Below, piece by piece: positions 3,284 through 52,662 of a stretch of DNA of 64,000 bases. Under the pieces are notes generated by a model. That model had not been told where the DNA came from, searched no databases, and saw nothing but the letters and a program-made list of their open reading frames with translations. This DNA is from Halocaridina rubra (lineage: Eukaryota; Arthropoda; Malacostraca; Decapoda; Atyidae). Every line of letters starts with the position of its first letter. The stretch's first letter is position 1. A program made the position numbers and the translations under genes. The stretch is from positions 62,001-126,000 of the forward strand of contig JAXCGZ010015116.1 in assembly GCA_037179515.1 (NCBI GenBank), given 5' to 3'.

Positions 3284-5043
<1,760 letters not shown>

Positions 5044-11335: not shown

Positions 11336-12061
<726 letters not shown>

Positions 12062-12492: not shown

Positions 12493-14109
<1,617 letters not shown>

Positions 14110-22679: not shown

Positions 22680-24789
22680 TTATAAGTCTAATATTTCTGG
22701 AGGCTTTCCTCTGTTCCTCCGATCAGGTTTTACAGACTCAACTCTTTCTGATCTCTCTGGATCTTTACCACTGGGTTGTAGCTGGTCAATGTGTCGTCTG
22801 ACTACCTTGCTATCATCCAATTCTACTTCATAATTCAGATTTCCTAATTTCTTTTTAACTTTTCCTTTAGACCATTTCTCCTTGTTATACATTCTGACTA
22901 CTATGCTTTCATTTTCACAGAATTGTCTAATCTTTCCAATTTCTTTCAACCTTTCATATATTTCATTTTCTTTCTTACCTTTTGAGTCAGGTAGAAGTAG
23001 ATCTAACTTACATCTGAGTCTCCTTCCCATCAATACAAATGAAGGGCAAACACCTGTTGCTGTATGAGGTGTTGTCCTATATGTGAGCAAAAACTTATTA
23101 AGAGAATTATGAATGTTCATGGCATTAGCATTACACGTTTTCATTACACTTTTAAAGGTTTGTACCATTCTTTCTGCTGCACCATTTGTTGCTGGGTGAT
23201 AAGGTGCAGATAATTTATGTCTAATGCCATTTACCTTTAAGAAATTTTCAAACTCTTCTGAACAGAACTGAGGACCATTATCCGTAACTACTCTCTCTGG
23301 AATACCATGAGTAGAAAATAATGTCATGAGGACTTCAATTGTATTTAGAGAAGTTATTGTTTGCACTGGAATGATGTCAGGCTATTTGCTATAAGCATCA
23401 ACTACTACTAAATAAGAATTTCCCAGAAAGGGTCCTGCATAATCAATATGCAGTCTCTGATATGGATATCTTGCACATTTCCATGGGTATAAACTTATTG
23501 ACTTAGGGTTGTTTTGCTGTAATGCACAATCCAGACATTCCTTTATATTATCCTCTATATCTTTATCTATATTTGGCTACCATATGAAACTTCTAGCTAT
23601 TGCTTTTGACTTTACAATTCCTTGATGACCTTCATGTATTTCTTCCAAAACCTTTATTCTGACTGGCATAGGACCTACTACTCTAGCTCCTCTCAAGATA
23701 CAATCTTGTTCTATACTTAATTCTTCCTTAACTACTTTATAAGCATGACACTCTTCGCCTTCTAAGAACTTATCATTTCCTGTCATCAAATATTCCTTCA
23801 CTTTACATAGGACTTTATCTTTTGTTGTGCTTTGTCCAATGTTCTTTGCTCTCAAGGGTAAGTTTTGAGTTTCAATCAATAGTATGGACTTTTCATGCCC
23901 TTCTGGTGCTTTCTCTACTGGTAATCGTGACAATGCATCTACATTTCCCATTTTACTAGTGGGTCTATACTCTAATGAGTAATTATAAGCAGCTAATATT
24001 ATTGCCCATCTCTGGAGTCTAGCTGCAACTAGCATTGGTAGTCCTGCTTTTGAACCTAAGATAACTAATAGTGGCTTATGGTCAGTGACTAAAGCAAACA
24101 TATTCTTTCCATACAAATACATGTGAAATTTCTTAACTCTATAGATCAACGATAAGCCTTCCTTCTCTATTTGAGAATAATTTTGCTCAGCTTTATTCAA
24201 CAACATTGAAGCAAATGCAATAGGTTTTTCTGTGCCATCTGGCATTCCATGCGCTAAGACACAACCTATTCCAACTTGTGAGGCGTCACATACTAATTTT
24301 AAAGGAAGATTTTCTTTAAAGTGTACTAAAAACTTATCAGAACAAATCTCCTTTTTTATTTTTTCAAAAGCATTCTGACACTCCTGTGACCATTTCCACT
24401 TTACCTCATTCTTTAATAGCTGGTATAAGGGATGAGTTATTGCTGTTAAATCTTTAATAAATTTTGCATAGAATGTTACTGATCCAAGAAATGATTGCAC
24501 CTCTTTCATATTTGCTGGTATTTTAGCTCCCCATACTGCTTTTATCTTTTCTTTTGTTTTGTGAATGCCATTTTCATCTATCACAAATCCCAAATAATTT
24601 ACTGATGATACATTGAATAGATAATTATTCTTGTTTATCTTCACACCATTTTCCTTTATTTTATCTAATACTTTCTTTAATCTCTGATTATGCTGTTGTT
24701 CATCTTCTTCCCCAACAACTATGTAATTTACAAAGCAGAAAACACCATCTAATCCTGTGAATAGCTTGACCATAGTCTCTTGCCATGAG
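22680..24789 (-). pseudogene. G-B pol, downstream part: end of RT, RNase H, integrase
   Basis: The frame starting at 24773 (398 codons) begins inside the RT palm. The active-site box reads CFVNYIVVGEEDE where YxDD is expected, so both catalytic Asp are gone. It continues through YLGFVIDENGI, SFLGSVTFYAKFI, RNase H with LVCDASQVGIGCVL, NYSQIEKEGLSLIY and VTDHKPLL, then DALSRLP and the integrase HEGHQGIVKSKAIARSF. A TAG stop at about 23577 and another near 23382 precede a 228-codon frame (23366-22680) with VVTDNGPQF, SAPYHPATNGAAERM and LLTYRTTPHT. The first catalytic box HIDYAGPF is near 23440. The HHCC zinc site reads HX3H...CLDC. Confidence 0.88.
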
Positions 24790-24794
24790 GCTGG
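24790..24794. other. Target-site duplication GCTGG, left copy
   Basis: GCTGG here abuts the LTR terminus TGTTGGGG of the tandem Gm array. The same five bases follow the opposite terminus at 54771-54775. The G-B RT reading joins up across the array when one copy is removed (GVASSPA then SWQETM). Confidence 0.9.
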
Positions 24795-27604
24795 TGTTGG
24801 GGTTAGGATGGTTGAGTGTTGTTAGTATTCTGTTTTACTAAGGGAACTCAAAGTACTGAGCTCAGTTAAGAGCTCACTAACAGACAGGACATATATTTGT
24901 ACTTGAACACCCCATTCATTTTGCCATGGCTCGGTTTATTGAAACTCAGAATTCAACTTTCTTTTAATTTTCGAAATGCAATGACATTAAAAGAATTGAA
25001 TTAAATTTCTCAAATTAAATTTTATGAAATGCTGCCTCCAATCCCTGAGGTGGTGAGCACGATTTCGTTTCCCGGCACCACGGACGTATGCCAAGACTTT
25101 GGCTCAACTCGACGATTACCTCTGTCACACAGGCAGAGTAGAATAGAGGACACTGCAATTTCAGAAACAGAAATGACACAAAGTTAATAATGGGAAACTG
25201 AAAGCATGAGCACACATATAATGAGTTTCCAGTGTTATTCTACTGGATGAAAATATATTGGTTATTCACAGCTAACCAGAAATATTTATGCTACCATAAT
25301 AGCACACAAAACCATTAATTCCTTACTGGTTTTAAAGGAAAACAATTTATGCACAATAAATGAAGAATAAGCAAGACAAATGCAGTACTGTATGTATTCC
25401 TTAAACTGTGGGCAACCACAAAAGTTGCAATGCTTATTACTGATTTACAATTTATATGGTAAAACACTCTATTTAGGATAAAGGAAGAATCTACGAGATA
25501 AATACAGTATTCATTCATTTTTGGTTATCAAGAACTGTTTGCAATGAAAAAAAAAGAGGGTGCAAAACCACCTTTTGAGGTATTTGCAGCTTATAACTCA
25601 AAACACTTTATCCCCAACATATGAAGAATTAGCAAGATAAATACAGTATGCATTCCTTAAATTGTGGTTAGCAGGAAATATTTGCAAAGCCAACAGGTTA
25701 AAATTACCTTTTAAATATTTGCAGTTTATAGCATAAAACACTTTAGTTAAATGATTAATTATTTGCAATTTATATAGCAAATAGCTTTATTGACGAGTTT
25801 TTGATGTAAAACACTTTATTTACGATGATAGAAAGAGGTGAAATGAAATTAAAATTTATTAGGAAAAGAGATAGATTTTTACGGGCTCATAACCAGTCTT
25901 CAGAGGATGAGATTTTTGTTTATCACGTTCAGTGAAAAGAAACTTCTTAGCAATGTATATCAGCTGTAATTTCCAGGTTAATGAATTAACTTTGGCAAGT
26001 GAGATTCCAGTTAGGTAATCTACAAAATTTCGTTTGTATGGGAATGGAATCTGAGAATAAAATTCCTAAGATTTAGCCAGTAACGAATGTAACTAATTCT
26101 CGAAAAACCAATTTGCTTAACCCACGAGCTTTACCATACACTTTACCATACCATCAAGAGACAGAAAATGAGAGAGATCTAGGAGTAAACATACTGGCAG
26201 ATTTGTCTCCAGAAATACATATAAATGGCGTAGTAAGGGCAGCATATGCATTCTTATCAAATGTAAGGGTAGCCTTCAGGCACATGGACAAGGAAATGTT
26301 CAGAAATATCTATGTAACCTATGTGAGGCCAAAACTCGAATATGCAGCCCCCTTTTGGAATCCGCACTTGAAAAAGCACATAGCTAAGCTTGAAAAAGTT
26401 CAAAGACATGCCACAAAACTGGTGCCAGAAATACGCAATCTCGGTTATGATGAGAGGCTGAGGGAATTAGACTTGCCATCACTCGAAGCTAGAAGAGTAA
26501 GGGGGGATATGGTGACAGTCTTTAAATTCCTTCATGGTTATGATAGAGTGGATAGGGATCGATATTTCGATATGGCTGGCTCTAGAACTAGAGGTCATAG
26601 TTTGAAGCTTCGTAAGAAAACTTGTTTGCAGGATGTAAGGAAATACTTTTTCAGTGTAAGAGTAGTTGATAATTGGAATTCGCTAAGCGAGGAGGTAGTT
26701 AATGCTATCTCAATCCATAGTTTTAAGGACAGGTATGATAAGTATCACTAAGTCTAAAAATGGAACCGATCAGGAGACGGGAAGATACGAGCTTTGGGCT
26801 CTTTCCCGTAAACACAATTAGGTAATCAATTAGGTAATCACACTATCCCTCACCTTGTTGTGCCAGATGAATTCCTGTGAAGATGCCACGTAAATAAGGT
26901 TTGAAATAAATTTAGACTGCTCAGGTGAGATGTTGCCTCTGGGCAGTCTCGGCACCAAATGAGGACGCCTCATTGTCCCTCCTGGTGACGTCATCTGCAG
27001 GATACATTTCTAGAGCAGTAACTGGCTCTGATATCATTTAAGGACTACTTTAGTGGTGGTCCCTGGCAGGCAATTATAGCAGAGATGCAAGGGAGAGACA
27101 GTATTTTGGGTGCAACAGGTGGAAGCAAATAAAATAAAACGAGAATAATAATGAAAAGTTAGGTTACTGGTAAACAATCTCTAGAACGTTCTTTGCTTGT
27201 AGGAGACAGAATTTAAGTACTCAAATAATAAAGAAGCTACTGATATATATCTAGACAGGCTAATGACATAACAGCAAGGTCAAATTTATAACAAAATCAT
27301 TAGCAAGAACAATTTTTATAATAAGAAAATTGTAAACAAAACAAATCTGGTGAGTTCACAGAAGAGATGGAAAATAGGAGCAGCCTTTATATCGGGACTA
27401 TCCTTCTACACATACAAGAAGAGTAAATAAGGTATATTTAAAATTAGCTATAAACTAAAATATAAATTGCAAATAATCATAATCTGCAAATGTCAAGAAG
27501 TGGGAATTATTTTTTTTTGTTAGAAAAATGACAGTTAAGTTACTAAATTAATTAATAAGGCATCTGGCAGCCTCTGGTGACTTTGAGCAAAACACTCTGT
27601 CACA
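24795..27604 (-). repeat. Gm-2 3' LTR, interrupted by a CR1-like LINE
   Basis: The termini are TGTTGGGG (24795, plus-strand reading) and CTGTCACA (27604). Without the 688-base LINE it is about 2.1 kb, like the other two LTRs of the array. It is followed by the polypurine region AAGGCCCTTTCTAGA at 27605. Confidence 0.88.
26154..26841 (+). mobile_element. CR1-like LINE 3' fragment inside the Gm-2 3' LTR
   Basis: The open frame 26158-26751 begins at the QETENERDLGVNILADLS segment and runs to the conserved C-terminus. The 3' UTR ends in GGTAATCAATTAGGTAATCAC. LTR sequence resumes at ACTATCCCTCACC. At the left junction TTTACCATAC of the LTR is repeated at 26130 and 26142, a short duplication made during insertion. 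Confidence 0.9.
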
Positions 27605-28244
27605 AAGGCCCTTTCTAGAGAATATTGATTTAGCAAAATTCTACTACTGAAGGCGAAAAAAGAACAGAGGAAGTTACGGTGACTTCAGTGTTATTATGAG
27701 GGATGAGATATCCTTCTCATGGAAAAGAACAAATGAACAATAAGAATGGGATCCACCACTGGAACATATCATACTATTAGGAAAAGTGAACAAGTCTTCT
27801 AAACAAAACATTAAATGACATGCAAAACATACAAGAAATGTGATCAAATTCAAATTTCAAGAAAATTAAATCACAATTAGATCTCAGAGAATATCAATAT
27901 TTAAGTTTAAGAATGCTTCACATGCAAGAAGGCAATAATATAATATACAAAACAAAAAATACAGTATACGCAAATGTAAAATATGAACCAAGTCGTCATT
28001 AACATTGGCGACTGGATTTAAAACAGTTTGAGCTATTCAACACTAAACTAAAATGTTTCTGCCATGTTCTGGCTTTCAAAGTCCCACAAAGGGAAGTATA
28101 AAACTACAATCAAAGACTCATTCTTCATCTTTTTCGTCTTCCATTAGGAATAACGTTTGTATGCTAAAATAAACAAGTACAGTACAGTATTAAAGACATA
28201 AAGGATAAACATAAAAAATAAACAACACATTAGAGAAGTAATCT
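27605..28244 (-). other. Gm-2 3' UTR with polypurine tract
   Basis: This lies between the pol stop at 28245 and the 3' LTR. On the minus strand the LTR is preceded by TCTAGAAAGGGCCTT, a short purine run that probably primes the plus strand. No open frame of note. The same region occurs at 30593-31227, 46316-46955 and 63149-63820. Confidence 0.65.
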
Positions 28245-28667
28245 TTACTGACTAGTCAAATTTAGGCTAACAGCACCAGCTTCCTCATTTGAGGGTAACG
28301 ACCGTCGACTTAGTAGATCAACATGTTGGGCAGTGAATTTGAAAAGATTCAGGCAAAGTGTCCACCTTTTCAGGCGAGGATTTAGCTTGTCTGCAGTCTG
28401 TAAATATAGGAGAGGTCGGTGGTCGGTCCTCAGTGTAAAATGTTGGCCATACAGATGGACTTCAAATTTCTTTATGGCCCAATATGCAGCTAGAGCTTCC
28501 TTCTCCACGGTGGAGTAATTTCGCTCTGCAGGGCGAAGCCTGCAGCTTGCATATCGTACTGGAGCTACTTCTGCTGAGTTGTCTGATTGGGCTTGCAAGA
28601 GCACGGCACCCAGGCCTTCGTCTGAGGCATCGGTCTGCAAGATAAATGGAAAATCAGGGTTTACCAG
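28245..28667 (-). pseudogene. Gm-2 pol, C-terminal RNase H piece
   Basis: A 131-codon frame begins at LQTDASDEGLGAVLLQAQ (catalytic Asp). It contains the Glu box NYSTVEKEALAAY and TDHRPLLYLQ, and ends with the family C-terminus. The eight codons around HGKDNDLAD are missing in frame, as in Gm-3, which removes a conserved RNase H Asp. It is cut off from the rest of pol by Gm-1 at 28668. Confidence 0.9.
28663..28667. other. Target-site duplication ACCAG, left copy (Gm-1)
   Basis: ACCAG precedes the Gm-1 terminus TGTGGGGGG. The second copy is at 38930-38934, directly after CTGTCACA. Gm-2 pol is continuous when one copy is removed. Confidence 0.93.
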
Positions 28668-30592
28668 TGTGGGGGGTTTTAGGATGCTAGAGTGTTTTTT
28701 TAAGATTCTGTTTTACTAAGGGGACTCAAAGTACCGAGCTCGGTTAAGAGCTCACAAACAGACAGGACAGATATTTGTACTTGAACACCCCATCTATATT
28801 ACCATTAGTCGGTTAAATGAAACTCAGAATTCAACTTTCTTTTAATTTTGGAAATGCAATGACATTAAAAGAATTGAATTAAATTTCTCAAATTAAATTT
28901 TATGAAATGCTGCCTCGAATCCTGGAGGAGGTGAGTATGAGTTCGTTTCCCGGCACCACGGACGTATGCCAAGACTTTGGCCTCAACTCGATGATTACCT
29001 CTGTCACACAGGCAAAGTAGAATACAGGACACTGCAATTTCAGAAACAGAAATGACACACTGTTTATAATGGGAAATTGAAAGCATGAGCACACATATAA
29101 TAAGTTTCCAATGTCATTCTACTGGATGAATATATATAGGTTATTCACAGCTAACCAGAAATATTTATGCTACCATAATAGCATACAAAACATTAATTCT
29201 TTACTGGTTTTAAAGAAAACAATATATTCACAATAAATGAAGAATAAGCAAGACAAATACAGTACTGTATGTATTCCTTAAATTGTGGGCAACCACAAAA
29301 GTTGCAATGCTTATTACTGATTAACAATTAATATGGTAATACTCTATTTAGGATAAAGGAAGAATCTACGAGATAAATACAGTATTCATTCACTTTTAGT
29401 TATCAAGAACTTTGCAATGAAAAAAAGGGTGCAAAACCACCTTTTGAGGTATTTGCAACTTATAACTCAAAACACTTTATCCCCAACATATGAAGAATTA
29501 GCAAGATAAATACGGTATGCATTCATTAAATTGTGGTTAACAAGAAATATTTGCAAAGCCAACTGGGAAAAATTACCTTTTAAATATTTGCAATTTTGTT
29601 TTTTGGCAAATAGCTTTATTGACGAGTTTTTGAAGTAAAACACTTTATTTACGATGATAGAAAGGGGTGAAATGAAATTAGAATTTATTAGGAAGAGAGA
29701 TAGATTTTTACGGGCTCATAACCAGTCTTCAGAGGATGAGATTTTCGTTTATCACATTCAGTGAAAAGAAACTTCTCAGCAATATATATCAGCTGTAATT
29801 TACAGGTTAAGGAATTAACTTTGGCATGTGAGATTCCAGTGTGGTAATCTACAAAATTTCGTGTGACTGGGAATGGAATCTGAGAATAAAAATCCATAAG
29901 ATTTATCCAGTAACGAATGTAACTAATTCTCGAAAATAAACAATTTGCTTGACCCACGAGCTTTACCATACACTATCCCTCACCTTGTTGTGCTAGATGA
30001 ATTCCTTGTTGTGCTAGATGAATTCCTGTGAAGATGCCACGTAATTAGATTTTAAATAAACTTAGACTACCCAGGCGAGATGTTGCCTCTGGGCAGTCTC
30101 GGCGCCAAAAGAGAGCGTCTCCTTGTTCCTCCTGGTGAGGTCATCTGTAGGAGACATTTCTAGAGCAGTAATTGGCTCTGATATAATTTTAAGGACTATT
30201 TTAGTGGTGGTCCCTGGCAGGCAATTATAGCAGAGATGCAAGGGAGAGACAGTATTTTTAGGTGCAACAAGTGGAAGCAAATAAAATAAAACGAGAATAA
30301 TAATGAAAAGTTAGGTTACTGGTTATTTTTTTCTTAATTTTCTTGGCTCGTTGCAGACAGAAAAATAGGAGCAGCCTTTATATTGGGGCTATACTTCTAC
30401 ATGTACAAGAAGAGTAAATAAGCTATTTATAATTAGCTATAAGCAAAAATACAAATTGCAAATAATCATAATCTGCGAAAGTCAAGAAGTGGGAATTAAT
30501 TTTTTTAGTTAGAAAATAACAGTTATGTTACTAATTTATTTGTTAAGGCATCTAACAGCCTCTGTTGACATTGAGCGAAACACTCTGTCACA
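28668..30592 (-). repeat. Gm-1 3' LTR
   Basis: 1925 bp. On the minus strand it starts TGTGACAGAGTGTTTCGCTC and ends CCTAAAACCCCCCACA. It is about 180 bp shorter than the Gm-2/Gm-3 LTRs because a segment near 30320-30370 is replaced by an unrelated short stretch containing TCTTGGCTCGTTGCAGACAG. It contains no credible ORF. Confidence 0.92.
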
Positions 30593-31227
30593 AAGGCCCT
30601 TTCTAGAGAATATTGATTTAGCAAAATTCTACTACAGAAGGCGAAAAAAGAACAGAGGAAGTTACGGTGACTTCAGTGTTATTATGAGGGATGAGATATC
30701 CTTCTCATGGAAAAGAACAAATGAACAATAAGAATGGGATCCACCACTGGAACATATCATACTATTAGTAAAAGTAAACAAGTCTTGTAAACAAAACATT
30801 AAATGACATGCAAAACATAAAAGAAATGTGATCAAATTCAAGTTTCAAGAAAATTAAATCACAATTAGATATCAGTGAATATCAATATTTAAGTTTATGA
30901 ATGCTTCACATGCAAGAAGGCAATAATATAATATACAAAATAAAATACAGTATACGCAAATTAAACATTTGAACCACGTCGTCATTAACATTGGCGACTG
31001 GATTTAAAACATTCAGCTATTCAGCCCTAAACTAAAATGTTTCTGCCAAGTTCTGGCTTTCAAAGTCCCACAAAGGGAAATATAAAACTACGATCAAAAA
31101 ATTATTCTTCATCTTTTTCGTTTTCCATTAGGAATAACGTTTGTACGCTAAAGTAAAGAAGTACAGTACAGTATTAAAGACATAAAAGATAAACATAAAA
31201 ATAAACAACACATTAGAGAAGTAATCT
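30593..31227 (-). other. Gm-1 3' UTR with polypurine tract
   Basis: 635 bases between the pol stop and the 3' LTR. The minus-strand end TCTAGAAAGGGCCTT touches the LTR start TGTGACAG. The rest is A/T-rich, has no ORF, and is conserved among all Gm copies in the window. Confidence 0.65.
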
Positions 31228-34200
31228 TTACTGACTAGCCAAATTTAGGCTAACAGCACCAGCTTCCTCATTTGAGGGTAACGACCGTCGACTTAGTAGA
31301 TCAGCAAGGTCATTGTCCTTGCCATGAACATGTTGGGCAGTGAATTTGAAAAGATTCAGGTAAAGTGCCCACCTTTTCAGACGAGGATTTAGCTTGTCTG
31401 CAGTCTGTAAATATAGGAGAGGTCGGTGGTCGGTTCTCAGTGTAAAATGTTGGCCATACAGATGGACTTCAAATTTCTTTATGGCCCAATATGCAGCTAG
31501 AGCTTCCTTCTCCACAGTGGAGTAATTTCGCTCTGCAGGGCGAAGCCTGCGGCTTGCATATCGCACTGGAGCTACTTCTGCTGAGTTGTCTGATCGGGCT
31601 TGCAAGAGCACGGCACCCAGGCCTTCGTCTGAGGCGTCGGTCTGCAAGATAAATGGAAAATCAGGGTTTACCAGTTGTAATACTGGCTCACCTGCCAATG
31701 CTTCTCGGAGCTTGAAAAATGCTCTCTCCGCTTCATCTGTCCATTTGACAGGGGAGGATTTACTTTGCTTCGAGGAGGTCAGTTGCTGCAAAGGGGCAGC
31801 GATAGTATTAAAGTGTGGAATGAACCGTTGGTAGTAGCCGACACTACCCAGGAATGATCTCAGTTGAGTGACAGTGGCAGGTTTCTCCATATCCTTAATA
31901 GCTTGTACCCTGTCATGTATAGGGGACATAACTCCTTCTCCAACCACGTGGCCGAGATACTGCAATTGTGTGAAACCAATCTCACATTTGGAAGGCTTTA
32001 AATGAAGTCCATGCTGGTTCAGACGAGTGAGAACTCTGCGGAGAGTCTCGAGGTGCGATGACCAATCCTGAGAATGCACCAGGATGTCGTCTATAAAGCA
32101 TGAAACATTGTCGAGATCCTGTAGTACTATCCTCATGAGTCTGCTGAAGCAGCCAGGGGCATTTACCATACCAAAAGGCATGACCCTGAACTGGTATAGA
32201 CCATATCTTGTGGAAAAAGCTGTAAGAGGCTTGGTAGTCTCGCTCAACGGGACTTGCCAAAATCCACTGGCCAAATCCAACTTGGACAGGTAACGGGCTT
32301 GGGAAAGCAACGAGAAAATATGCTCGGCGTCTGCAATGGGCTCTCCATCAAAGATGGTACGGGAGTTAATCTTACGACAGTCAAGGCAGAACCTGTGACT
32401 GCCATCTCGCTTACGCACTGCCAGTAACGGCGAACACCAAGGCGAAATGCTCTTTTCAACTATTCCGAGGCGGACCCAAGTGTCAAGATCTTCCTTCAGC
32501 CGTAAGGACAACTGGTGGGGAAGACCATAGGAATGCCGAAATGGCTCTGGGTCAGTCAATCTGACATGATGCTCAAGGGTAGTGGTAATGCCTGGGAGGT
32601 CGTTGAAGACGTTCTCATAGTCCTCTAATAGCTTGTTCAGCTGTTCCCGTTGACTCGGTTGCAGTCTGGAGTTAATAATGCAATTACTCACACTTTCTTT
32701 TCGGTGTGTGGGAACGGCAGGATCCTTACCATCATCAAAAACTAAGCTTATGTCTTCAATTGCAAGGGCGGTGGCTGCGGCCAGAGGGGCTTCTTCAAAA
32801 AAACTCCACTCCCGTAAGTCTGTCTCCACTGCAAGGGTGGAGTATTCCAATATAGGAAGTAAGGGGTGGCTATAATGGAGCACCTGTGTTGCTGCAGCCT
32901 CGGAGGTTCTGTTGATGCTTGAGGCATCTATAGGGGTTGCTGGGAGCGCCAGCGCAGGATCCCTGTGGGCCTCCGGGTCCTCACAATAAAGCTTCAGCTG
33001 GTTAATGTGGTATTTCCGGTTAATGCCATCAACATTTAGCACATAATTGTCAGGGGTCACCCGGTGTACCACAGTGTACGGTCCTTTCCAGCGTAGCATT
33101 AGCTTGCGGGTATCTGTTGGAAGAAGTAACAGAGCTCGATCTCCGGGTGTCAGGGCACGACGCCGCGCACGCTTGTCAAAGAGGAGCTTGGCAGTCTGCT
33201 GGTGACCCTTAATGGCTAATTGTGCAGTTTTCCATGCCCTTTTGAGGTGAGACGAAAACTTCAAAATATACTCATGGACGTCCCTATCGTCATCTTCGAT
33301 GGTAGGTGAATCCCAACATTCTGCCAAGAATTCTACTGGGCCTCTGACCTTATGACCATAAATCATCTCGAAAGGCGAGTATCCAGTAGTGTCGTGGGGC
33401 GTGTCTCTGAAGGAGAAAAGTGCAGCAGGGACGTACTTGTCCCACTGCCTAGGCATATCTATCACTAGCTTGCGCAAACATCGCTTCAATGTCCCGTTAT
33501 AGCGTTCGCATGCTCCATTTGATTGGGCATGATAGACACTCGTGCGAATGTGCTTGATTTCTAAAAGGTTGCAGAAAGCCTCAAAGTGCCTACTTGTAAA
33601 CTGACTTCCATTGTCAGAAGTGACCTGCTCAGGAAAGCCAACCCTGGAGCACATTTCAAATAGGGCTTGAGCAACTGCTTCAGTTGTGATAGAAGGCAGT
33701 GGCACTGCATCTGGGTACCTTGTTGCCAGGTCAGCATATACCAGGAGGAATTGTTTCCCCGTGGACAAAGTTGGATTAATAGGACCTAGTATGTCAATAG
33801 CGACATTGGAAATGGGCTCCATTGAGAGCTTAGTTATCCCCATGGGAACTTTCAGTACTGGTGCCGTTGAGGTGGATTGACAGACAGGGCAGGAACCTAC
33901 ATATCTGTCTACCTCGGTGTACATGTTTGGCCATGCAAAAGCCTTCTGAAGGGCGTGCCGAGTTTTTGCTTTGCCTCTGTGTCCACTCAGAGGTAAATGG
34001 TGTGCCACATACATAGCCTGGCGGCGCAACGAAGCGGGCACCACCAACTGTTTAAAGGTGTGGCCACCTTTAGTCACATGCCTACAAAGTACTCCATCTT
34101 CAAGGGCATAAGTGATCTGGCTTCCTCCTCTCACCGTGAAGGTCCTTCCCTCGGTGGCCTGCTGCATCCAGCGTTTGAGGCTGGGGCACTCTTGCTGCAA

Positions 34201-35343
34201 TTTGGCAAAGTCTGGACGGGACTTCAATGGCTCTAGAGGTGCATCATCTGGTAAAGGAGGGGTAAACTCTCCGTGTTCCACATTACGTTTACTGACTGCA
34301 GCAGACTCAACGGAGTCAGTCGGAGAATCATCCAAATTCTTGGCATCGAGGCCAGGAGTTGCTGCTGAAATGGCTTTATGTGACTTCCCCTGAGGGAAGT
34401 TATAACGAGAAATGTCCTTATGGTAGAGGTCGGCCTGGAAAGTAGGAACTAAGTTCAGTGCACGACCCATGAAGACAGGGTACATAAGCCCAATCATTGC
34501 CACAGCTGGGGCTTTTCCCTTGTAATATTTGCAATCCAGGTTAATGACACAGCAGCGTCGTATTTGGGGTGTTCCTTCAGCAACCCGCACACGAACGACT
34601 TCGCCGGTATAATCTTCATCCCTGACGAATCTCTCGTCAACAAATATGCCATTGGCCCCTGTGTCAAGGGCTATCTCAACTTCCACACCATTTATAGTTC
34701 CTAGACATTTTGGGATCACCTGCGGATTACCCCATTCGGTGAGTTCCACATTGGCAAGTTTGTACGTAGGTTCCTCGGCGTTATCCCCAGTGGCCCTTTC
34801 TGGCCTTATTTCTACAGCATGGGCCATGTGCGTGGCCAGACGGCTTTGTGGGCCGCCGCTGTGTGAGGGAGCGTGGTGGCTCTTAGAGTTGGGCTGAAAA
34901 CCCTGGGAAGGTGGAGCAGAGTAATGGCCTTTGTCTCTTAACTGCTGAGGCTTAGGTCTTACCGGGTCATCCTTCTTGAGTGTGGGTGCAGGGCCGTAAT
35001 AAGACTTAGGAGTGTGAGGAGGATGAGCTGGACGATTGAAGTTCTGCAAGGGGCTCTTGTGCTTCCCGTTCCTGTAATCTCTATTTCCGGATAAAGGACT
35101 ACTGTCTGGGATTCCCGCTCGAAGCCGAGCAAGCGCAAGCTCATGTTTATGTTGTGCTTGTGCCTCCTTACGTTGTGCTTGTGCCTCCTCACTTGCTCTC
35201 TCCTCCAGCATATCTCGGCGCTCAACCATCTTCTCATAAGCCCATTCGAAGAGCTTCTGTCTGGGGGAAAAACCATATCTCTCACCCCTAGCAATCAGCA
35301 TGTCTAGGTAACGCTCCTTATCGAATGTTTTGATGGTTTCCAT
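31228..35343 (-). CDS. Gm-1 polyprotein: short Gag-like part, protease, integrase, RT, RNase H
   Basis: A single 1,371-codon ORF starting at the ATG at 35343. Residues 1-85 are charged and coiled-coil-like (RASEEAQAQRKEAQAQ). Residues 86-200 are Pro/His/Ser/Lys-rich. No capsid or CCHC knuckle is visible. The protease has ALDTGANG at 226-233. The integrase has a zinc site H449/H455...C485/C488, catalytic D517 (AIDILG), D577 (TSDNGSQF) and E613 (ACERYNG), spacing D-X35-E, and a C-terminal GPY module near 755. RT lies at about 890-1180, with LDLASGF at 1022 and FIDD at 1083-1086. RNase H has TDAS at 1235, the Glu of STVEKEA, TDHRPL and DNDLADLLSRR. All catalytic residues that I can locate are present. 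Integrase before RT is the Ty1/copia arrangement, yet every domain looks Ty3/gypsy. This matches the Gmr1 group. The product would assemble particles and insert cDNA, perhaps with Gag supplied in trans. Confidence 0.93.
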   Translation of the reverse strand: METIKTFDKERYLDMLIARGERYGFSPRQKLFEWAYEKMVERRDMLEERASEEAQAQRKEAQAQHKHELALARLRAGIPDSSPLSGNRDYRNGKHKSPLQNFNRPAHPPHTPKSYYGPAPTLKKDDPVRPKPQQLRDKGHYSAPPSQGFQPNSKSHHAPSHSGGPQSRLATHMAHAVEIRPERATGDNAEEPTYKLANVELTEWGNPQVIPKCLGTINGVEVEIALDTGANGIFVDERFVRDEDYTGEVVRVRVAEGTPQIRRCCVINLDCKYYKGKAPAVAMIGLMYPVFMGRALNLVPTFQADLYHKDISRYNFPQGKSHKAISAATPGLDAKNLDDSPTDSVESAAVSKRNVEHGEFTPPLPDDAPLEPLKSRPDFAKLQQECPSLKRWMQQATEGRTFTVRGGSQITYALEDGVLCRHVTKGGHTFKQLVVPASLRRQAMYVAHHLPLSGHRGKAKTRHALQKAFAWPNMYTEVDRYVGSCPVCQSTSTAPVLKVPMGITKLSMEPISNVAIDILGPINPTLSTGKQFLLVYADLATRYPDAVPLPSITTEAVAQALFEMCSRVGFPEQVTSDNGSQFTSRHFEAFCNLLEIKHIRTSVYHAQSNGACERYNGTLKRCLRKLVIDMPRQWDKYVPAALFSFRDTPHDTTGYSPFEMIYGHKVRGPVEFLAECWDSPTIEDDDRDVHEYILKFSSHLKRAWKTAQLAIKGHQQTAKLLFDKRARRRALTPGDRALLLLPTDTRKLMLRWKGPYTVVHRVTPDNYVLNVDGINRKYHINQLKLYCEDPEAHRDPALALPATPIDASSINRTSEAAATQVLHYSHPLLPILEYSTLAVETDLREWSFFEEAPLAAATALAIEDISLVFDDGKDPAVPTHRKESVSNCIINSRLQPSQREQLNKLLEDYENVFNDLPGITTTLEHHVRLTDPEPFRHSYGLPHQLSLRLKEDLDTWVRLGIVEKSISPWCSPLLAVRKRDGSHRFCLDCRKINSRTIFDGEPIADAEHIFSLLSQARYLSKLDLASGFWQVPLSETTKPLTAFSTRYGLYQFRVMPFGMVNAPGCFSRLMRIVLQDLDNVSCFIDDILVHSQDWSSHLETLRRVLTRLNQHGLHLKPSKCEIGFTQLQYLGHVVGEGVMSPIHDRVQAIKDMEKPATVTQLRSFLGSVGYYQRFIPHFNTIAAPLQQLTSSKQSKSSPVKWTDEAERAFFKLREALAGEPVLQLVNPDFPFILQTDASDEGLGAVLLQARSDNSAEVAPVRYASRRLRPAERNYSTVEKEALAAYWAIKKFEVHLYGQHFTLRTDHRPLLYLQTADKLNPRLKRWALYLNLFKFTAQHVHGKDNDLADLLSRRSLPSNEEAGAVSLNLASQ

Positions 35344-35557
35344 GTTTGTTTCCTGTGACTGCCTGGTTTCCTAATCAGTCAATAACGAAGTGCCAAAACA
35401 ACCACAAAAAAACAAATCTCTACAATACAGTAGTAGAAAAAAAAATGAAAGAACCACACAACACCAAGGAGAGAAAGAAAAAAATTCAACACCACAGTTC
35501 AAACTTAAACGTAAAAGTGATCTCAAAATCTCACCATAAAAGTGACTCAAAATTCAA

Positions 35558-35968
35558 TCAAGTGCAACAGCAGCAAAATGTTGCAAAACAGTGCATGAAA
35601 CACTGGCAATACAGAATGGCAGTCGTGCCTGCTTAACAGCAATATGTGGCAGTACCTGCGGTTATTGTGCAAATGAAAGGAATGAGCAACACAATCAAGT
35701 GCAACAGCAACAATATGTTGCAAAACAGTGCATGAAACACTGGCAATACAGAATGGCAGTCGTGCCTGCTTAACAGCAATACGTGGCAGTACCTGCGGTT
35801 ATTGTGCAAATGAAAGGAATGAGCAACACAATCAAGTGCAACAGCAACAAAATGTTGCAAAACAGTGCATGAAACACTGGTAATACAGAATGGCAGTCGT
35901 GCCTGCTTAACAGCAATACGTGGCAGTACCTGCAGTTATGGTGCAAATGAAAGGAATGAGTAACAACG
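35558..35968. repeat. 137-bp tandem repeat, three units (Gm-1 leader)
   Basis: Units begin TCAAGTGCAACAGCA at about 35558, 35695 and 35832. They contain ATGTTGCAAAACAGTGCATG, GGCAGTCGTGCCTGCTTA and GGCAGTACCTGCGGTTAT. Homologous blocks in Gm-2 (42783-43340) and Gm-3 (51239-51800) hold four or more units. Confidence 0.9.
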
Positions 35969-36000
35969 AATTTTACCGACTAGCACCCAGTGCCTGAGAG

Positions 36001-36330
36001 TACAATCAAGTACAGTATAGCGGTCGTGCCTGCGTATGAGCGCATATATGGCAGTACCCACAAATAAAAGGTCGTAAGTAATACGAACAAGTACAGTATC
36101 ACGGTCGTGCCTGCGTATGAGCGCGTATATGGCAGTACCCACAAATAAAATGTCGTAAGTAATACGAACAAGTACAGTATCGCGGTCGTGCCTGCGTATG
36201 AGCGCGTATATGGCAGTACCCACAAATAAAATGTCGTAAGTAATACGAACAAGTACAGTATCGCGGTCGTGCCTGCGTATGAGCGCGTATATGGCAGTAC
36301 CCACAAATAAAATGTCGTAAGTAAAATTCT
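36001..36330. repeat. 81-bp tandem repeat, four units (Gm-1 leader)
   Basis: GGTCGTGCCTGCGTATGAGC recurs at about 36022, 36103, 36184 and 36265. Each unit also has GTATATGGCAGTACCCACA and AAATGTCGTAAGTAA. The core TCGTGCCTGC...GGCAGTACC is shared with the neighbouring 137-bp repeat, so the two blocks are related. Gm-2 and Gm-3 have two units each. Confidence 0.9.
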
Positions 36331-36982
36331 GGAGTGTTACCAAAAGGGCACAGATCCTATGCAAAATACACCAACGATAAGCTAACAGCTTACTAGGCAG
36401 CCAGATTACACATTTCTACTATTAATGAGAAAATTTATTTTCATGTGACAACTCAGACACATGAAAGGCTTAGCCTAGGCTCGATAAATGACACCAAAGT
36501 TTTTCTTCCAATGAGCAGTCAATGCTTGAATATAAAACACAATTATAAGCAAAAATACTTAATATGCTTTCTCCCAATTCCTAATTCCAAGGAAATATAA
36601 ACAATTCCTAACAAGTATCACCATTTAACGGATATATAAAACACGAATGCTTTAAAACTCAATCTTATCACGCAAATAAATGAAATTTTATATAACACGT
36701 CTTCTCGTCATGCAAAATTTCTAAAGTCTGTTACCACATAATCTCATGTAGATTTCCTGAAATATTGTTTACCACATGGGAAACAAGAAAATATTAGTTA
36801 GCATTATCAATATTGAAAACAAAGAAAATTTTTTTTTATCCGCAACGTCTCTAGCGCGAAAATTTTCGTGTGCAGCCTAAGATTCATTCATTTCAATAAT
36901 CGAGCCAATGGTAATCGGGTTTCATGTGCAATGTTAAAAAGCAAAATAAAAATAAATTTATAAAATCAGTCTGTCTGTTCGG

Positions 36983-37000
36983 GTCCCTGTTCGGGCGCCA
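36983..37000 (-). other. Gm-1 primer binding site (tRNA-Lys type)
   Basis: On the minus strand TGGCGCCCGAACAGGGAC lies three bases after the 5' LTR. This 18-mer is the well-known complement of the 3' end of tRNA-Lys(UUU), also used by lentiviruses. It is identical in Gm-2 and Gm-3. Confidence 0.92.
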
Positions 37001-37003
37001 AAC

Positions 37004-38929
37004 TGTGGGGGGTTTTAGGATGCTAGAGTTTTTTTTTAAGATTCTGTTTTACTAAGGGGACTCAAAGTACCGAGCTCGGTTAAGAGCTCACAAACAGACA
37101 GGACAGATATTTGTACTTGAACACCCCATCTATATTACCATTAGTCGGTTAAATGAAACTCAGAATTCAACTTTCTTTTAATTTTGGAATTGCAATGACA
37201 TTAAAAGAATTGAATTAAATTTCTCAAATTAAATTTTATGAAATGCTGCCTCGAATCCCGGAGGAGGTGAGTATGAGTTCGTTTCCCGGCACCACGGACG
37301 TATGCCAAGACTTTGGCCTCAACTCGATGATTACCTCTGTCACACAGGCAGAGTAGAATACAGGACACTGCAATTTCAGAAACAGAAATGACACACTTTT
37401 TATAATGGGAAACTGAAAGCATGAGCACACATATAATAAGTTTCCAATGTCATTCTACTGGATGAATATATATAGGTTATTCACAGCTAACCAGAAATAT
37501 TTATGCTACCATAATAGCATACAAAACATTAATTCTTTACTGGTTTTAAAGAAAACAATATATTCACAATAAATGAAGAATAAGCAAGACAAATACAGTA
37601 CTGTATGTATTCCTTAAATTGTGGGCAACCACAAAAGTTGCAATGCTTATTACTGATTAACAATTAATATGGTAATACTCTATTTAGGATAAAGGAAGAA
37701 TCTACGAGATAAATACAGTATTCATTCACTTTTAGTTATCAAGAACTTTGCAATGAAAAAAAGGGTGCAAAACCACCTTTTGAGGTATTTGCAACTTATA
37801 ACTCAAAACACTTTATCCCCAACATATGAAGAATTAGCAAGATAAATACGGTATGCATTCATTAAATTGTGGTTAACAAGAAATATTTGCAAAGCCAACT
37901 GGGAAAAATTACCTTTTAAATATTTGCAATTTTGTTTTTTGGCAAATAGCTTTATTGACGAGTTTTTGAAGTAAAACACTTTATTTACGATGATAGAAAG
38001 GGGTGAAATGAAATTAGAATTTATTAGGAAGAGAGATAGATTTTTACGGGCTCATAACCAGTCTTCAGAGGATGAGATTTTCGTTTATCACATTCAGTGA
38101 AAAGAAACTTCTCAGCAATATATATCAGCTGTAATTTACAGGTTAAGGAATTAACTTTGGCATGTGAGATTCCAGTGTGGTAATCTACAAAATTTCGTGT
38201 GACTGGGAATGGAATCTGAGAATAGAAATCCATAAGATTTATCCAGTAACGAATGTAACTAATTCTCGAAAATAAACCAATTTGCTTGACCCACGAGCTT
38301 TACCATACACTATCCCTCACCTTGTTGTGCTAGATGAATTCCTTGTTGTGCTAGATGAATTCCTGTGAAGATGCCACGTAATTAGATTTTAAATAAACTT
38401 AGACTACCCAGGCGAGATGTTGCCTCTGGGCAGTCTCGGCGCCAAAAGAGAGCGTCTCCTTGTTCCTCCTGGTGAGGTCATCTGTAGGAGACATTTCTAG
38501 AGCAGTAATTGGCTCTGATATCATTTTAAGGACTATTTTAGTGGTGGTCCCTGGCAGGCAATTATAGCAGAGATGCAAGGGAGAGACAGAATTTTTAGGT
38601 GCAACAAGTGGAAGCAAATAAAATAAAACGAGAATAATAATGAAAAGTTAGGTTACTGGTTATTTTTTTCTTAATTTTCTTGGCTCGTTGCAGACAGAAA
38701 AATAGGAGCAGCCTTTATATTGGGGCTATACTTCTACACGTACAAGAAGAGTAAATAAGCTATTTAAAATTAGCTATAAGCAAAAATACAAATTGCAAAT
38801 AATCATAATCTGCGAAAGTCAAGAAGTGGGAATTAATTTTTTTAGTTAGAAAATAACAGTTATGTTACTAATTTATTTGTTAAGGCATCTAACAGCCTCT
38901 GTTGACATTGAGCGAAACACTCTGTCACA
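37004..38929 (-). repeat. Gm-1 5' LTR
   Basis: 1926 bp, nearly identical to 28668-30592, with the same termini. Differences seen by eye include single-base changes near 37190, 37256, 37396, 38224, 38522, 38590, 38738 and 38766. Confidence 0.92.
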
Positions 38930-41900
38930 ACCAGTTGTAATACTGTCTCACCCGCCAATGCTTCTCGGAGCTTGAAAAATGCTCTCTCCGCTTCATCTGT
39001 CCATTGGACAGGGGAGGTTTTACCTTGCTTTGAGGAGGTCATTTGCTGCAAAGGGGCAGTGATAGTATTAAAGTGTGGAATGAACCATTGGTAGTAGCCG
39101 ACACTACCCAGGAATGATCTCAGTTGAGTGACAGTAGCGGGTTTCTCCATATCCTTAATAGCTTGTACCCTGTCATGTAAAGGGGATATAACTCCTTCTC
39201 CAACCACGTGGCCGAGATACTGCAATTGTGTGAAACCAATCTCACATTTGGAAGGGTTTAAATGAAGTCCATGCTGGTTCAGACGAGTGAGAACTCTGCG
39301 GAGGGTCTCGAGGTGCGATGACCAATCCTGAGAATGCACCAGGATGTTGTCTATAAAGCATGAAACATTGTTGAGATCCTGTAGTATTATCCTCATGAGT
39401 CTGCTGAAGCAGCCAGGGGCATTTACCATACCATAAGGCATGACCCTGAACTGGTATAGGCCATATCTTGTGGAAAAGGCTGTAAGAGGCTTGGTAGTCT
39501 CGCTCAACGGGACTTGCCAAAATCCACTGGCCAGATCCAACTTGGACAGGTAACTGGCTTGGGAGAGCAACGTAAAAATATGCTCGGCGTCAGCAATGGG
39601 CTCTCCATCAAAGATGGTACGGGAGTTAAGGTTACGACAGTCAAGGCAGAACCTGTGACTGCCATCTCGCTTACGCACTGCCAGTAACGGTGAACACCAG
39701 GGCGAAATGCTCTTTTCAACTAGTCCGAGGCGAACCCAAGTGTCAAGATCTTCCTTCAGCTGTAAGAACAGCTGGTTGGGAAAACCACAGGAATGCCGAA
39801 ATGGCTCTGGGTCAGTCAATCTGACATGATGCTCAAGGGTAGTGGTAATGCCTGGGAGGTCGTTGAAGACGTTCTCATAGTCCTCTAATAGCTTGTTCAG
39901 CTGTTCCCGTTGACTCGTTTGCAGTCTGGAGTTAATAATGCAATTACTCACACTTTCCTTTCGGTGAGTGGGAATGGCAGGATCCTTACCATCATCAAAA
40001 GCTAAGCATATGTCTTCAATTGCAAGGGCGGTGGCTGCGGCCAGAGGGGCTTCTACTCCGAAAAACTCCACTCCCGTAAGTCTGTCTCCACTGCAAGGGT
40101 GGAGTATTCCAATATAGGAAGTAAGGGGTGGCTATAATGGAGCACCTGTGTTGCTGCAGCTTCGGAGGTTCTGTTGATGCTGGGGGCATCTATAGGGGTT
40201 GCTGGGAGTACAAGCGCAGGATCCCTGTGGGCCTCCGGGTTCTCACAATAAAGCTTCAGCTGGTTAATGTGGTATTTCCGGTTATTGCCATCAATATTTA
40301 GCACATAATTGTCAGGGGTCACCCGGCGTATCACAGTGTACGGTCCTTTCCAGCGTAGCATTAGCTTGCGGGTATCTGTTGGAAGAAGTAACAGAGTTTG
40401 ATCTCCGGGTGTCAGGGCACGACGCCGGGCATGCTTGTCAAAGAGGAGCTTGGCAGTCTGCTGGTAACCCTTAATGGCTAATTGTGCAGTTTTCCAAGCC
40501 TTTTTGAGGTGAGACGAAATTGTTCAAAATATACTCATGGACGTCCCTATCGTCATCTTTGATGGTAGGTGAATCCCAACATTCTGCCAAGAATTCTACT
40601 GGGCCTCTGACCTTATGACCATAAATCAGCTCAAAAGGCGAGTATCCAGTAGTGTCGTGGGGCGTGTCACTGAAGGAGAAAAGTGCAGCACTGCCTAGAT
40701 ATATCTATCACTAGATGGCGCAAACATCGCTTCAATGTCCCGTTATAGCTTTCGCATGCTCCATTTGATTGGGCATGATAGAAACTCGTACGAATGTGCT
40801 TCATTTCTAATAGGTTACAGAAAGCCTCAAAGTGCCTACTTGTAAACTGACTTCCATTGTCAGAAGTGACCTGCTCAGGAAAGCCAACCCTGGACCAGAT
40901 TTCAAATAGGGCATGAGCGACTGCTTCAGTCGTGATAGAAGACAGTGGCACTGCATCTGAGTACCTTGTTGCCAGGTCGACATATACCAGGAGGAACTGT
41001 TTCCCCGTGGACGGAGCTGGATTAATAGGGCCTAATATGTCAATAGCAACCTTGGAAAATGGCTCCATTGAGAGCTTAGTTATCCCCATGGGAACTTCAG
41101 TACCGGTGCCGTTGAGGTGGATTGACAGACAGGGCAGGAGCCTACATATCTGTCTACCTCGGCGTACATGTTTGGCCATGCAAAAGCCTTCTGAAGGGCG
41201 TGCCGAGTTTTTGCTTTGCCTCTGTGTCCACTCAGAGGTAAATGGTGTGCCACATACATAGCCTGGTCAAGCAACGAAGTGGGCACCACCAACTGTTTAA
41301 AGGTGTGGCCATCTTTAGTCACATGCCTACAAAGTACTCCATCTACAAGGGCGTAAGTGATCTGGCCTCCTCCTCTCACAGTGAAGGTCCTTCCCTTGGT
41401 GGCCTGCTGCATCCAGCGTTTGAGGTTGGGGCAGTCTTGCTGCAATTTGGCAAAGTCTGGACGGGACTTCAATGGCTCTAGAGGTGCATCATCTGGTAAA
41501 GGAGGAGGAAACTCTCCGCGTTCCACATTACGTGTACTGACTGCAGTAGACTCAACAGAGTCAGTCGGAGAATCGTCCAAATTCTTGGCATCGAGGCCAG
41601 GAGATGCTGCTAAAATGGCTTCCTGTGACTTCCCCCGAGGGAAGCTATAACGAGAAATATCCTTTTGGTAGAGGTCGGCCTGAAAAATAGGAACTAGGTT
41701 CAGTACACGACCCAGCAAGACAGGGTACATAAGCCCAATCATTGCCACAGCTGGGGCTTTTCCCTTGTAGTATTTGCAATCCAGGTTAATGACATAGCAG
41801 CGTCGTATTTGGGGTGTTCCTTCAGCAACCCGCACAGGAACGACTTTGCCGGTAAAATCTTCATCCCTAACAAATTTCTCATCAACAAGTATGCCATTGG

Positions 41901-42588
41901 CCCCTGTGTCAAGGGCTATCTCAGCTTCCATGCCATTTATGGTTTCTAGGCATTTTGGGATCATTTCCAGATCATCATGTTTGATGAATTCCACATTGGC
42001 AAGTTTGTGTGGTTGTTCGTCGGTGTTATCCTCATTGGCCCTTTCTGGCACTGTTTGCAAAACATGGGCTGAGTGAGTGGCCAGACGGCTATGTGGGCCA
42101 CCGCTGTGTGAGGGAGCGTGGTGGCTCTTAGAGTTTGGCTGAAAACCCTGGGAAGGTGGAGCAGAGTAATGGCCTTTGCCTCTGAGCTGCTGAAGCTTAG
42201 GTCTTACCGGGTCATCCTTCTTGAGTGTGGGTGCATGGCCGTAATAAGGCTTGGGAGTGTGAGGAGGATGATCTGGATGATTGAAGTTCTGCGAGGGGCT
42301 ATTATGCTTCCCGTTCCTGTAATCTCTATTTCCGGATAAAGGACTACTGCCTGGGATTCCCGCTCGAAGCCGAGCAAGCACAAGCTCATGTTCACGTTGT
42401 GCTTGTGCCTCATCACGTTGTGCTTGTGCCTCATCACTTGCTCTCTTCTCCAGCTTATCTCGGCATTCAACCATCTTCTCATGAGCCCATTCGAAGAGCT
42501 TCTGTCTTGGGGAAAAACCGTATCTCTCACCCCTAGCAATCATCATGTCCAGGTAACGCTCCTCATCGTATGTTTTGATGGTTTCCAT
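38930..42588 (-). pseudogene. Gm-2 polyprotein, main part (broken)
   Basis: This has the same organisation and start (ATG at 42588) as Gm-1. Gag-like part, protease (ALDTGANGILVD) and integrase zinc site fill 42588-41080. A one-base loss near 41096 shifts the frame. The integrase core is in 41179-40680, with a deletion of about 20 bases near 40690, and a further frame change lies near 40524. The GPY module is in 40361-40053, and a two-base gain near 40055 precedes the RT frame (40071 downward), where FIDNIL replaces FIDD. Reading stops at the Gm-1 insertion, at codons for LQLV. The C-terminal piece is at 28245-28667. Confidence 0.88.
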
Positions 42589-44185
42589 GTTTGTTTCCTA
42601 AACAATCAATAACGAAGTGCCAAAACAACCACAAAAAATAACAAATCTCTACAATACAGTAGTAAAAAAAAAAATGAAAGAACCACACAACACCAAGGAG
42701 AGAAAAAAAAATTCAACACCACGGTTCAAACTTAAACGTAAAAGTGATCTCAAAACCTCACCATAAAAGTGACTCAAAATACAATCAAGTGCAACAGCAG
42801 CAAAATGTTGCAAAACTGTGCATAAAACACTGGTAATACAGAATGGCAGTCGTGCCTGCTTAACAGCAAGTATGTGGCAGTACCTGTGGTTGTGGTGCAA
42901 ATGAAAGGAATGAGCAACACAATCAAGTGCAACAGCTGCAAAATGTTGCAAAACAGTGAATGAAACATTGGTAATACAGAATGGCAGTCGTGCCTGCTTA
43001 GCAGCAATATGTGGCAGTACCTGCGGTTATCGTGCAAATGAAAGGAATGAGCAACACAATCAAGTGCAACAGCAACAAAATGTTGCAAAACAGTGCATGA
43101 AACACTGGTAATACAGAATGGCAATCGTGCCTGCTTAACAGCAATATGTGGTAGTACCTGCGGTTATCGTGCAAATGAAAGGAATGAGCAACACAATCAA
43201 GTGCAACAGCAACAAAATGTTGCAAGGCAGTGCATGAAACACTGGTAATAAAGAATGGCAGTCGTGCCTACTTAAGAGCAATACGTGGCAGTACCTGCGG
43301 TTATGGTGCAAATGAAAGGAATGAGCAACAACGAATTTTACTGACTAGCACCCAGTGCCAGAGAGTACAACAAGTACAGTATAGTGGTCGTGCCTGCATA
43401 TGAGCGCGTATATGGCAGTACCCACAAATAAAATGTCGTAAGTAATACAAACAAGTACAGTATAGCGGTCGTGCCTGCGTATGAGCGCGTATATGACAGC
43501 ACCCACAAATAAAATGTCGTAAGTAAAATTCTGGAGTGTTGCCAAAAGGGCACAGATCCTATGCAAAATACACCAACGATAAGCTAACAGCTTACTAGGC
43601 AGCCAGATTACACATTTCTACTAGTAATGAGAAAATTTATTTTCAAGTGACAACTTAGTCACAGGAAAGGCTTAGCCTAGGCTCGATAAATGACACCAAA
43701 GTTTTTCTTCCCAATCTATGAGCAGTCAATGCTTGAATATAAAACACAGTTATAAGCAAAATACTTAATATGCTTTCTCCCAATTCCTAAATCCCAAGGA
43801 AATATAAACAATTCTTAACACGAATCACCCTTTAACGGATATATTAAACACGAATGCTTTAAAACTCAACCTTATCACGCAAATAAATGAAATTTTAAAT
43901 AACACGTCTTCTCGTCATGCAAAATTTCTTATTTCTGCTACCATATAATCTCATGTAGATTTCCTGAAATATTGTTTACCAAATGGGAATTAAGAAAATA
44001 TTAGTTACCATAATTAATTTTGAAAATAAAAAATATTCTGATCCGCGACGTCTCTAGCGCGAAACTTTTCGTGTGCAGCCTAAGATTCATTCATTTCAAT
44101 AATCGAGCCAATGGTAATCGAGTTTCATGTGCAATGTTAAAAATAAAAATAAAAATAAATTTATAAAATCAGTCTGTCTGAACGA
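42589..44185 (-). promoter_or_regulatory. Gm-2 leader with tandem repeats
   Basis: This corresponds to the Gm-1 leader. About four 137-bp units (42783-43340) and two 81-bp units (43380-43530) are present. The rest is A/T-rich and nearly identical to the Gm-3 leader. Confidence 0.6.
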
Positions 44186-44203
44186 GTCCCTGTTCGGGCG
44201 CCA
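44186..44203 (-). other. Gm-2 primer binding site (tRNA-Lys type)
   Basis: The same 18-mer as in Gm-1, three bases from the LTR end TGATTGGGG (plus-strand reading). Its position shows that the LTR at 44207-46315 acts as the 5' LTR of Gm-2. Confidence 0.92.
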
Positions 44204-44206
44204 GTC

Positions 44207-52641: not shown

Positions 52642-52659
52642 GTCCCTGTTCGGGCGCCA
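52642..52659 (-). other. Gm-3 primer binding site (tRNA-Lys type)
   Basis: The same 18-mer as in Gm-1 and Gm-2, three bases from the LTR terminus at 52663. Confidence 0.92.
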
Positions 52660-52662
52660 GTC

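Follow-up and report, generated by a model that had tools for sequence, protein, structure and literature searches.

A young Gmr1-type retrotransposon with an intact Pol and no detectable capsid in the decapod Halocaridina rubra

Background

In the retrotransposon Ty3 the integrase lies after RNase H. A different order is found in the Gmr1 clade of Ty3/gypsy elements, reportedly described by Goodwin and Poulter in 2002, where the integrase lies upstream of the reverse transcriptase (RT) in pol and gypsy-type RT, RNase H and integrase are encoded in one long open reading frame (ORF). The same features are shared by Gm-1, a long terminal repeat (LTR) retrotransposon located in a 64,000-nucleotide stretch of the genome of the atyid Halocaridina rubra (GenBank assembly GCA_037179515.1, contig JAXCGZ010015116.1, forward-strand positions 62,001 to 126,000). 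This whole stretch is referred to as the window, and all coordinates given below are positions within it.

Gmr1-like elements were described from crustaceans (shrimps and crabs) in 2013, namely the four elements GyRex4/GyRex5, Gychoro2, GyMaja1 and GyLiva4 (PMC3587641), and an annelid Gmr1-like family followed in 2021 (PMC8220671). Gmr1 is also counted among five gypsy clades in several phyla (PMC8556966), and an annelid Gmr1 element is said to belong to a clade that the analysis in that paper did not find. An initial annotation of the window proposed that Gm-1 would either extend the range of Gmr1 beyond deuterostomes or be a separate lineage. The extension of range falls because elements described as Gmr1-like are already in print from crustaceans and annelids, and finding this domain order in an animal that is not a deuterostome is no longer news. 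The Gag of known Gmr1-like elements includes a capsid that is regarded as the source of the SCAN domain (PMC3424704, PMC4592553, PMC3406341). What remains here is a young variant, readable from end to end and apparently without a capsid, and the novelty is modest. Searches of open-licence PubMed Central, covering mostly the top-ranked papers, gave no title, opening of an abstract or passage that describes a capsid-less Gmr1 element.

Results and discussion

Domain order of Gm-1

Gm-1 carries an intact ORF of 1,371 codons on the minus strand (31228..35343) with an ATG start and a single terminal stop. An aspartic protease region (aa 206-330, 34354..34728) with DTG at residue 227 is followed by the HHCC zinc-binding motif of the integrase (aa 448-488, 33880..34002), the integrase core (aa 517-605, 33529..33795) with D517 and D577, and a GPY motif in the integrase C-terminal region (aa 754-756, 33076..33084). 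The third catalytic residue of the integrase, E613, lies just past the stretch matched by Pfam and is separated from D577 by 35 residues. Only then come the RT (RVT_1, aa 976-1133, 31945..32418, with FIDD at 1083) and RNase H (aa 1201-1330, 31354..31743), all of these on the minus strand.

Pfam was run on three separate pieces of the ORF with E up to 1 for family calls, and the order of matches along the ORF was protease, Integrase_H2C2 (E 9.8e-17), rve (E 3.4e-12), RVT_1 (E 2.8e-32), RT_RNaseH_2 (E 6.6e-33) and RT_RNaseH (E 2.2e-35), far beyond chance. The aspartyl protease match was weak (aa 215-264, E 5.9e-4) and fell under the curated Pfam cut-off. The copia families RVT_2 and gag_pre-integrs were not reported in the ORF at this threshold. 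Among the Protein Data Bank (PDB) matches listed, Ty3 was the best for the RT part, and foamy virus followed by Ty3 integrase were the best for the integrase, while no copia chain occurred among the best 60 of 315 plus 31 of 31 PDB matches for the Gm-1 enzymes. The order of the Pfam families together with the PDB matches therefore indicates gypsy-type enzymes in copia order. The ORF with all its motifs, the gypsy motifs in copia order and the Gmr1-type arrangement are thus as the initial annotation had described them, and Gm-1 is of Gmr1-type architecture, its membership in the clade being judged from that architecture.

The same domain order was readable by tblastn in two further copies in the window, Gm-2 and Gm-3, both of which are broken in frame. 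As set out below, these represent a single insertion, so that the order is common to two insertions, whose internal regions differ at 334 of 6195 aligned sites (5.4%). This argues against a rearrangement of one copy, as the annotation had held, and also against an assembly chimera. An alternative would be a chimera, in which unrelated integrase and RT modules were joined by recombination or by an error of assembly. The presence of the same order in a second, 5.4% diverged insertion, the exact target site duplications (TSDs), and the matches of both modules to gypsy or retrovirus-type proteins, with no copia family or chain among the matches listed, make such a chimera scarcely credible.

Gm-1 as a recent insertion

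Gm-1 occupies about 10.26 kb (28668..38929, minus strand) and has the marks of an LTR retrotransposon. A 5' LTR of 1926 bp (37004..38929) and a 3' LTR of 1925 bp (28668..30592), both on the minus strand, have TG...CA ends; the element is flanked by exact repeats of the TSD ACCAG (28663..28667 and 38930..38934). The internal region begins with GTT and then the 18-nt primer binding site TGGCGCCCGAACAGGGAC (36983..37000, minus strand), which is thus 3 nt from the 5' LTR and which we take to match tRNA-Lys(UUU); the same 18 nt also open the internal regions of Gm-2 and Gm-3. A candidate, imperfect polypurine tract AGAAAGGGCCTT adjoins the 3' LTR (30593..30604, minus strand).

The two LTRs of Gm-1 differ by five transitions and six transversions in 1925 sites plus one gap, giving a divergence K of 0.0057 (0.57%). 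Together with the TSD and the intact ORF this identifies Gm-1 as a young, recently inserted LTR retrotransposon, in agreement with the age first proposed for it. The leader of 1660 bp carries tandem repeats (35555..36324, minus strand), consisting of three copies of a 137-bp unit (35555-35965) and 3.9 copies of an 81-bp unit (36007-36324). The copy numbers of these arrays were 3.0 and 3.9 in Gm-1 and 4.0 and 2.0 in Gm-2 and Gm-3.

Gm-2 and Gm-3 as one duplicated insertion

Gm-1 is nested in Gm-2, splitting its RNase H, as the RNase H match in Gm-2 ends at 38929 and resumes at 28667. Gm-2 and Gm-3 form a tandem of the form LTR-internal-LTR-internal-LTR (24795..54770, minus strand), into which Gm-1 and a 697-bp repeat have been inserted, and a single pair of exact TSDs, GCTGG, flanks the whole (24790..24794 and 54771..54775). 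On the minus strand, the outer 5' LTR lies at 52664..54770 and the outer 3' LTR at 24795..27606; the latter holds the 697-bp insert (26143-26839) flanked by its own exact TSD ACACT (26138-26142 and 26840-26844). The low end of the middle LTR (44208..46315, minus strand) is placed to within a base or two. The internal region of Gm-2 lies for the larger part at 38930..44207 with the rest at 27607-28667, and that of Gm-3 at 46316..52663, again on the minus strand. Divergence is K 0.033 between the outer LTRs and 0.8-0.9% between the Gm-2 and Gm-3 internal regions (10/1061 and 44/5273 sites).

Unequal crossing-over between two LTRs of one insertion predicts a middle LTR that is a mosaic of the outer two, in the orientation observed. 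Of the 72 gap-free variable LTR sites, the outer 5' LTR alone departs from the other two at 48, the outer 3' LTR at 18 and the middle LTR at six. Along the alignment, the middle LTR resembles the 5' LTR as far as column 145, and from column 196 onwards it resembles the 3' LTR. A mosaic with one switch accounted for 57 of the 66 informative sites, a fit equalled in none of 20000 shuffles. Two frame changes were found in Gm-3 by tblastn; Gm-2 is broken at the same two places and has at least two further breaks besides the Gm-1 insertion. On these comparisons Gm-2 and Gm-3 are one insertion duplicated by unequal crossing-over between LTRs, and we infer that the insertion of the progenitor was followed by its decay, by the tandem duplication and lastly by the insertion of Gm-1. 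The nested tandem offers an ordered case of unequal LTR-LTR crossing-over. Of the earlier claim that three copies share the domain order, the order itself held in all three, but three independent copies were rejected given the mosaic middle LTR and the single GCTGG pair; there are only two insertions.

The N-terminal segment and the search for a capsid

About 205 residues precede the protease region of Gm-1, a gag-like remnant (aa 1-205, 34729..35343, minus strand) consisting of a helical segment and a P/H/S-rich stretch. This N-terminus is common to all three copies and is 81% identical between the two insertions. An AlphaFold model of aa 1-330, of low confidence with a mean pLDDT of 40.8, placed helices at aa 9-22 and 27-75. 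Residues 82-205 were helix-free in the model and of low complexity, with P, H, S, G, N, Q, K and R making up 62%.

No CX2CX4HX4C zinc knuckle was found by a motif search of the whole Gm-1 ORF. The N-terminal segments of Gm-1 and Gm-3 had no match to a gag, SCAN or capsid family in Pfam with E up to 10, and no capsid was found among PDB chains for the Gm-1 segment by phmmer, also with E up to 10. The longest stop-to-stop ORFs, leaving aside those crossing an edge, were 159 aa in the Gm-1 leader and 94 aa in either LTR. Pfam scans for a capsid encoded in the leader or LTRs covered ten pieces of Gm-1 (the N-terminus, all five minus-strand leader ORFs, three LTR ORFs and one ORF in an overlapping frame) and eight pieces in the scan of Gm-3 (six minus-strand leader ORFs, the Gm-3 N-terminus and, in addition, the Gm-1 linker between integrase and RT), out of a list of 37 ORFs for Gm-1 whose remainder, with ORFs on the plus strand among them, lay outside the scans, as did the leader ORFs of Gm-2; no convincing capsid match was obtained among the ORFs scanned. 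The SCAN-related capsid that is typical of the Gmr1 clade, although not defining for it, was likewise not encountered in Gm-1 with searches of limited sensitivity.

Gm-1 probably lacks a capsid and zinc knuckle, although it may instead carry a short Gag that has become unrecognisable. With neither a capsid nor a zinc knuckle detected in what was scanned, the earlier description of Gm-1 as apparently complete finds no support. Gm-1 is a caution against judging an LTR element complete by its pol ORF alone.

Selection on Pol and on the N-terminus

The ratio omega of nonsynonymous to synonymous change between Gm-1 and Gm-3, a comparison of which the neutral decay of Gm-3 makes up a part, was 0.41 for RT and for RNase H, 0.37 and 0.56 for two integrase pieces (overlapping by five residues), 0.50 for the linker and 0.63 for the protease. 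The integrase C-terminal piece reached 1.06 and aa 1-203 reached 1.09. Between Gm-1 and Gm-2, omega was 0.38 for RT and 0.89 for aa 1-203. When tested with rounded counts, leaving out the protease, linker and integrase C-terminal piece, nonsynonymous and synonymous change differed significantly for RT plus RNase H combined (p 0.017) and for the two integrase pieces (p 0.025), but showed no departure from equality for the N-terminus (p 1.0). The N-terminus had accumulated about 4 times as much nonsynonymous change as RT and RNase H together (p 4e-7), while synonymous rates did not differ between the two (p 0.38). The Pol of Gm-1 looks selected and its N-terminus does not, although the integrase C-terminal value runs counter to a uniformly constrained Pol.

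A proposed Pol that borrows its particle

We consider it fairly probable that Gm-1 is a Gmr1-type retrotransposon with a working-looking Pol that has no capsid of its own and uses the Gag of another element. Transcription would start from the 5' LTR and the RNA would be translated into one polyprotein. The RNA and Pol would then be packaged in particles whose Gag is supplied by a relative that has a capsid and resides at another site in the genome. tRNA-primed reverse transcription would follow, and insertion would leave the 5-bp duplication. The domain order, LTRs, primer site, TSDs and two insertions of the short form are observed, whereas the true absence of a capsid, the action of Gag in trans, its donor and current activity of Gm-1 are what we infer.

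Several points count against this proposal. The capsid-bearing donor is postulated only. Gag detection was run without a known Gmr1 Gag as positive control, and because Gag evolves fast the lack of a Pfam match says little about loss of the capsid. The structural model was poor throughout, even over the protease, and is therefore no argument against a fold in the N-terminus. An ORF in the leader tandem repeats of Gm-1 (35983-36336) matched DUF4939, which we take to be a gag-related family, with E 0.031; this was judged a chance match, and nothing like it came up in the six scanned ORFs of the Gm-3 leader. A match to YpmT (E 2.7e-5) in another frame of the same array was judged to be chance and equally meaningless. 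The omega values are based on few changes and a decayed partner, and the value of 1.06 for the integrase C-terminal piece means that constraint is relaxed beyond the N-terminus too.

It is possible, although we regard it as the less likely explanation, that Gm-1 is an ordinary autonomous Gmr1-like element in which aa 1-205 are a short and diverged but working Gag beyond the reach of Pfam. Gag proteins are often missed by profiles, and the short form has inserted at least twice. A first ORF of 235 codons without a zinc finger is described for the CsRn1-like element GyRex2, and a potential gag ORF of 221 codons, about as short as the N-terminus of Gm-1, is described for GyRex6, which comes from the shrimp that also yielded GyRex4 (both PMC3587641). 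The GyRex6 ORF is compatible with a short Gag and with a missing capsid alike, and it hints that the short form may occur more widely among decapods, although its authors were unable to place GyRex6 with the Gmr1-like pieces. The low-complexity, helix-free character of aa 82-205 speaks against a working Gag. The Ty3 capsid is described as two four-helix domains (PMC6525542), for which the 63 modelled helical residues are too few, and no sign of purifying selection was seen on the N-terminal segment in a comparison of low power.

The lack of visible constraint on that segment, and the broken frames of Gm-2 and Gm-3, would suit a dead-end deletion derivative, in which an accidental loss of the capsid left relic copies that no longer move. 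The short form is however present in two insertions with internal regions 5.4% apart, and Gm-1 has an intact ORF and LTRs only 0.57% apart. The short form has therefore moved again recently, and we consider a dead end unlikely. Very unlikely in our judgement is a gypsy-type lineage that has lost its capsid permanently and moves shell-free, with RNA and Pol kept together by the N-terminal helical segment and the basic, disordered residues after it. Should Gm-1 indeed borrow its Gag, it would become testable whether different elements can supply Gag and Pol in such genomes.

The surrounding window

The tandem was inserted in the RT of a canonical-order gypsy remnant on the minus strand, comprising the end of RT, RNase H and integrase (22995..24794). 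On the other side of the tandem the remnant extends through 54771-55078 and further, and this flank contains a stop. Seven ORFs of at least 250 aa lie outside the Gm copies; five of them had retroelement domains and two had no Pfam match. No Rfam family or tRNA was found in the window.

Diverged or fragmentary pieces resembling the Gm LTR were located by blastn at 15197-16893, 16890-18091, 59559-60509 and 61905-63641 with about 72-97% identity, which suggests a long local history of this LTR family. A 40-residue match to Gm-1 RNase H (55%, 3380-3499) is perhaps the remnant of an older relative. The 697-bp repeat at 26143-26839 and the repeats at 12064-12492, 13059-13809 and 20824-21573 share an end with a GTAATCACAATTAG-type tandem tail and differ at the other end, resembling the tails of 5'-truncated non-LTR retrotransposons. 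An ORF with an RVT_1 domain (12521-13321, plus strand, E 5.4e-27) lies upstream of one of these tailed copies and overlaps it. Pieces of LINE-type ORFs with endonuclease and RVT_1 domains were present at 55326-58081 on the minus strand, and an ORF with an RNase H domain at 9540-10712 on the plus strand, probably from another retroelement. Long (AT)n arrays of up to about 228 dinucleotide copies were found at 4768-5042, 11335-11789 and 13809-14109.

Comparison with known systems

The RT, RNase H and integrase of Gm-1 are homologous to those of Ty3 and of the canonical remnant in the window (22995-24794 and 54771-55078), although in the remnant the integrase follows RNase H, unlike in Gm-1. Scans for relatives elsewhere gave none in genome contigs for the RT or integrase of Gm-1 (two scans), and in viral contigs no locus was found for the integrase, RT, RNase H or N-terminal pieces, one relative being reported with 0 loci.

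From the Gmr1 clade in general Gm-1 differs in having no detectable capsid or knuckle. The Gmr1 to Gmr4 elements of Tetraodontiformes are reported with a Gag-Pol of 1506-1634 aa and LTRs of 337-518 bp (PMC11117352), compared to 1371 aa and 1.93 kb for Gm-1. The crustacean elements are Gmr1-like according to their authors' description; GyRex4 to GyRex6 are described as fragments that could not be joined, whereas Gm-1 is one insertion readable from end to end.

For the proposed use of a foreign Gag, the nearest parallel is Tos17 of rice, described as active yet without gag, with an intact-looking pol and Gag in trans inferred (PMC3977881), and BARE-2 is listed alongside it. Tos17 is a plant Copia element, while Gm-1 has gypsy-type proteins and an N-terminal remnant fused to Pol. 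If our interpretation is correct, a capsid-less Gmr1-type element with a conserved Pol would be the gypsy-type counterpart of Tos17, bringing its own enzymes to a borrowed particle.

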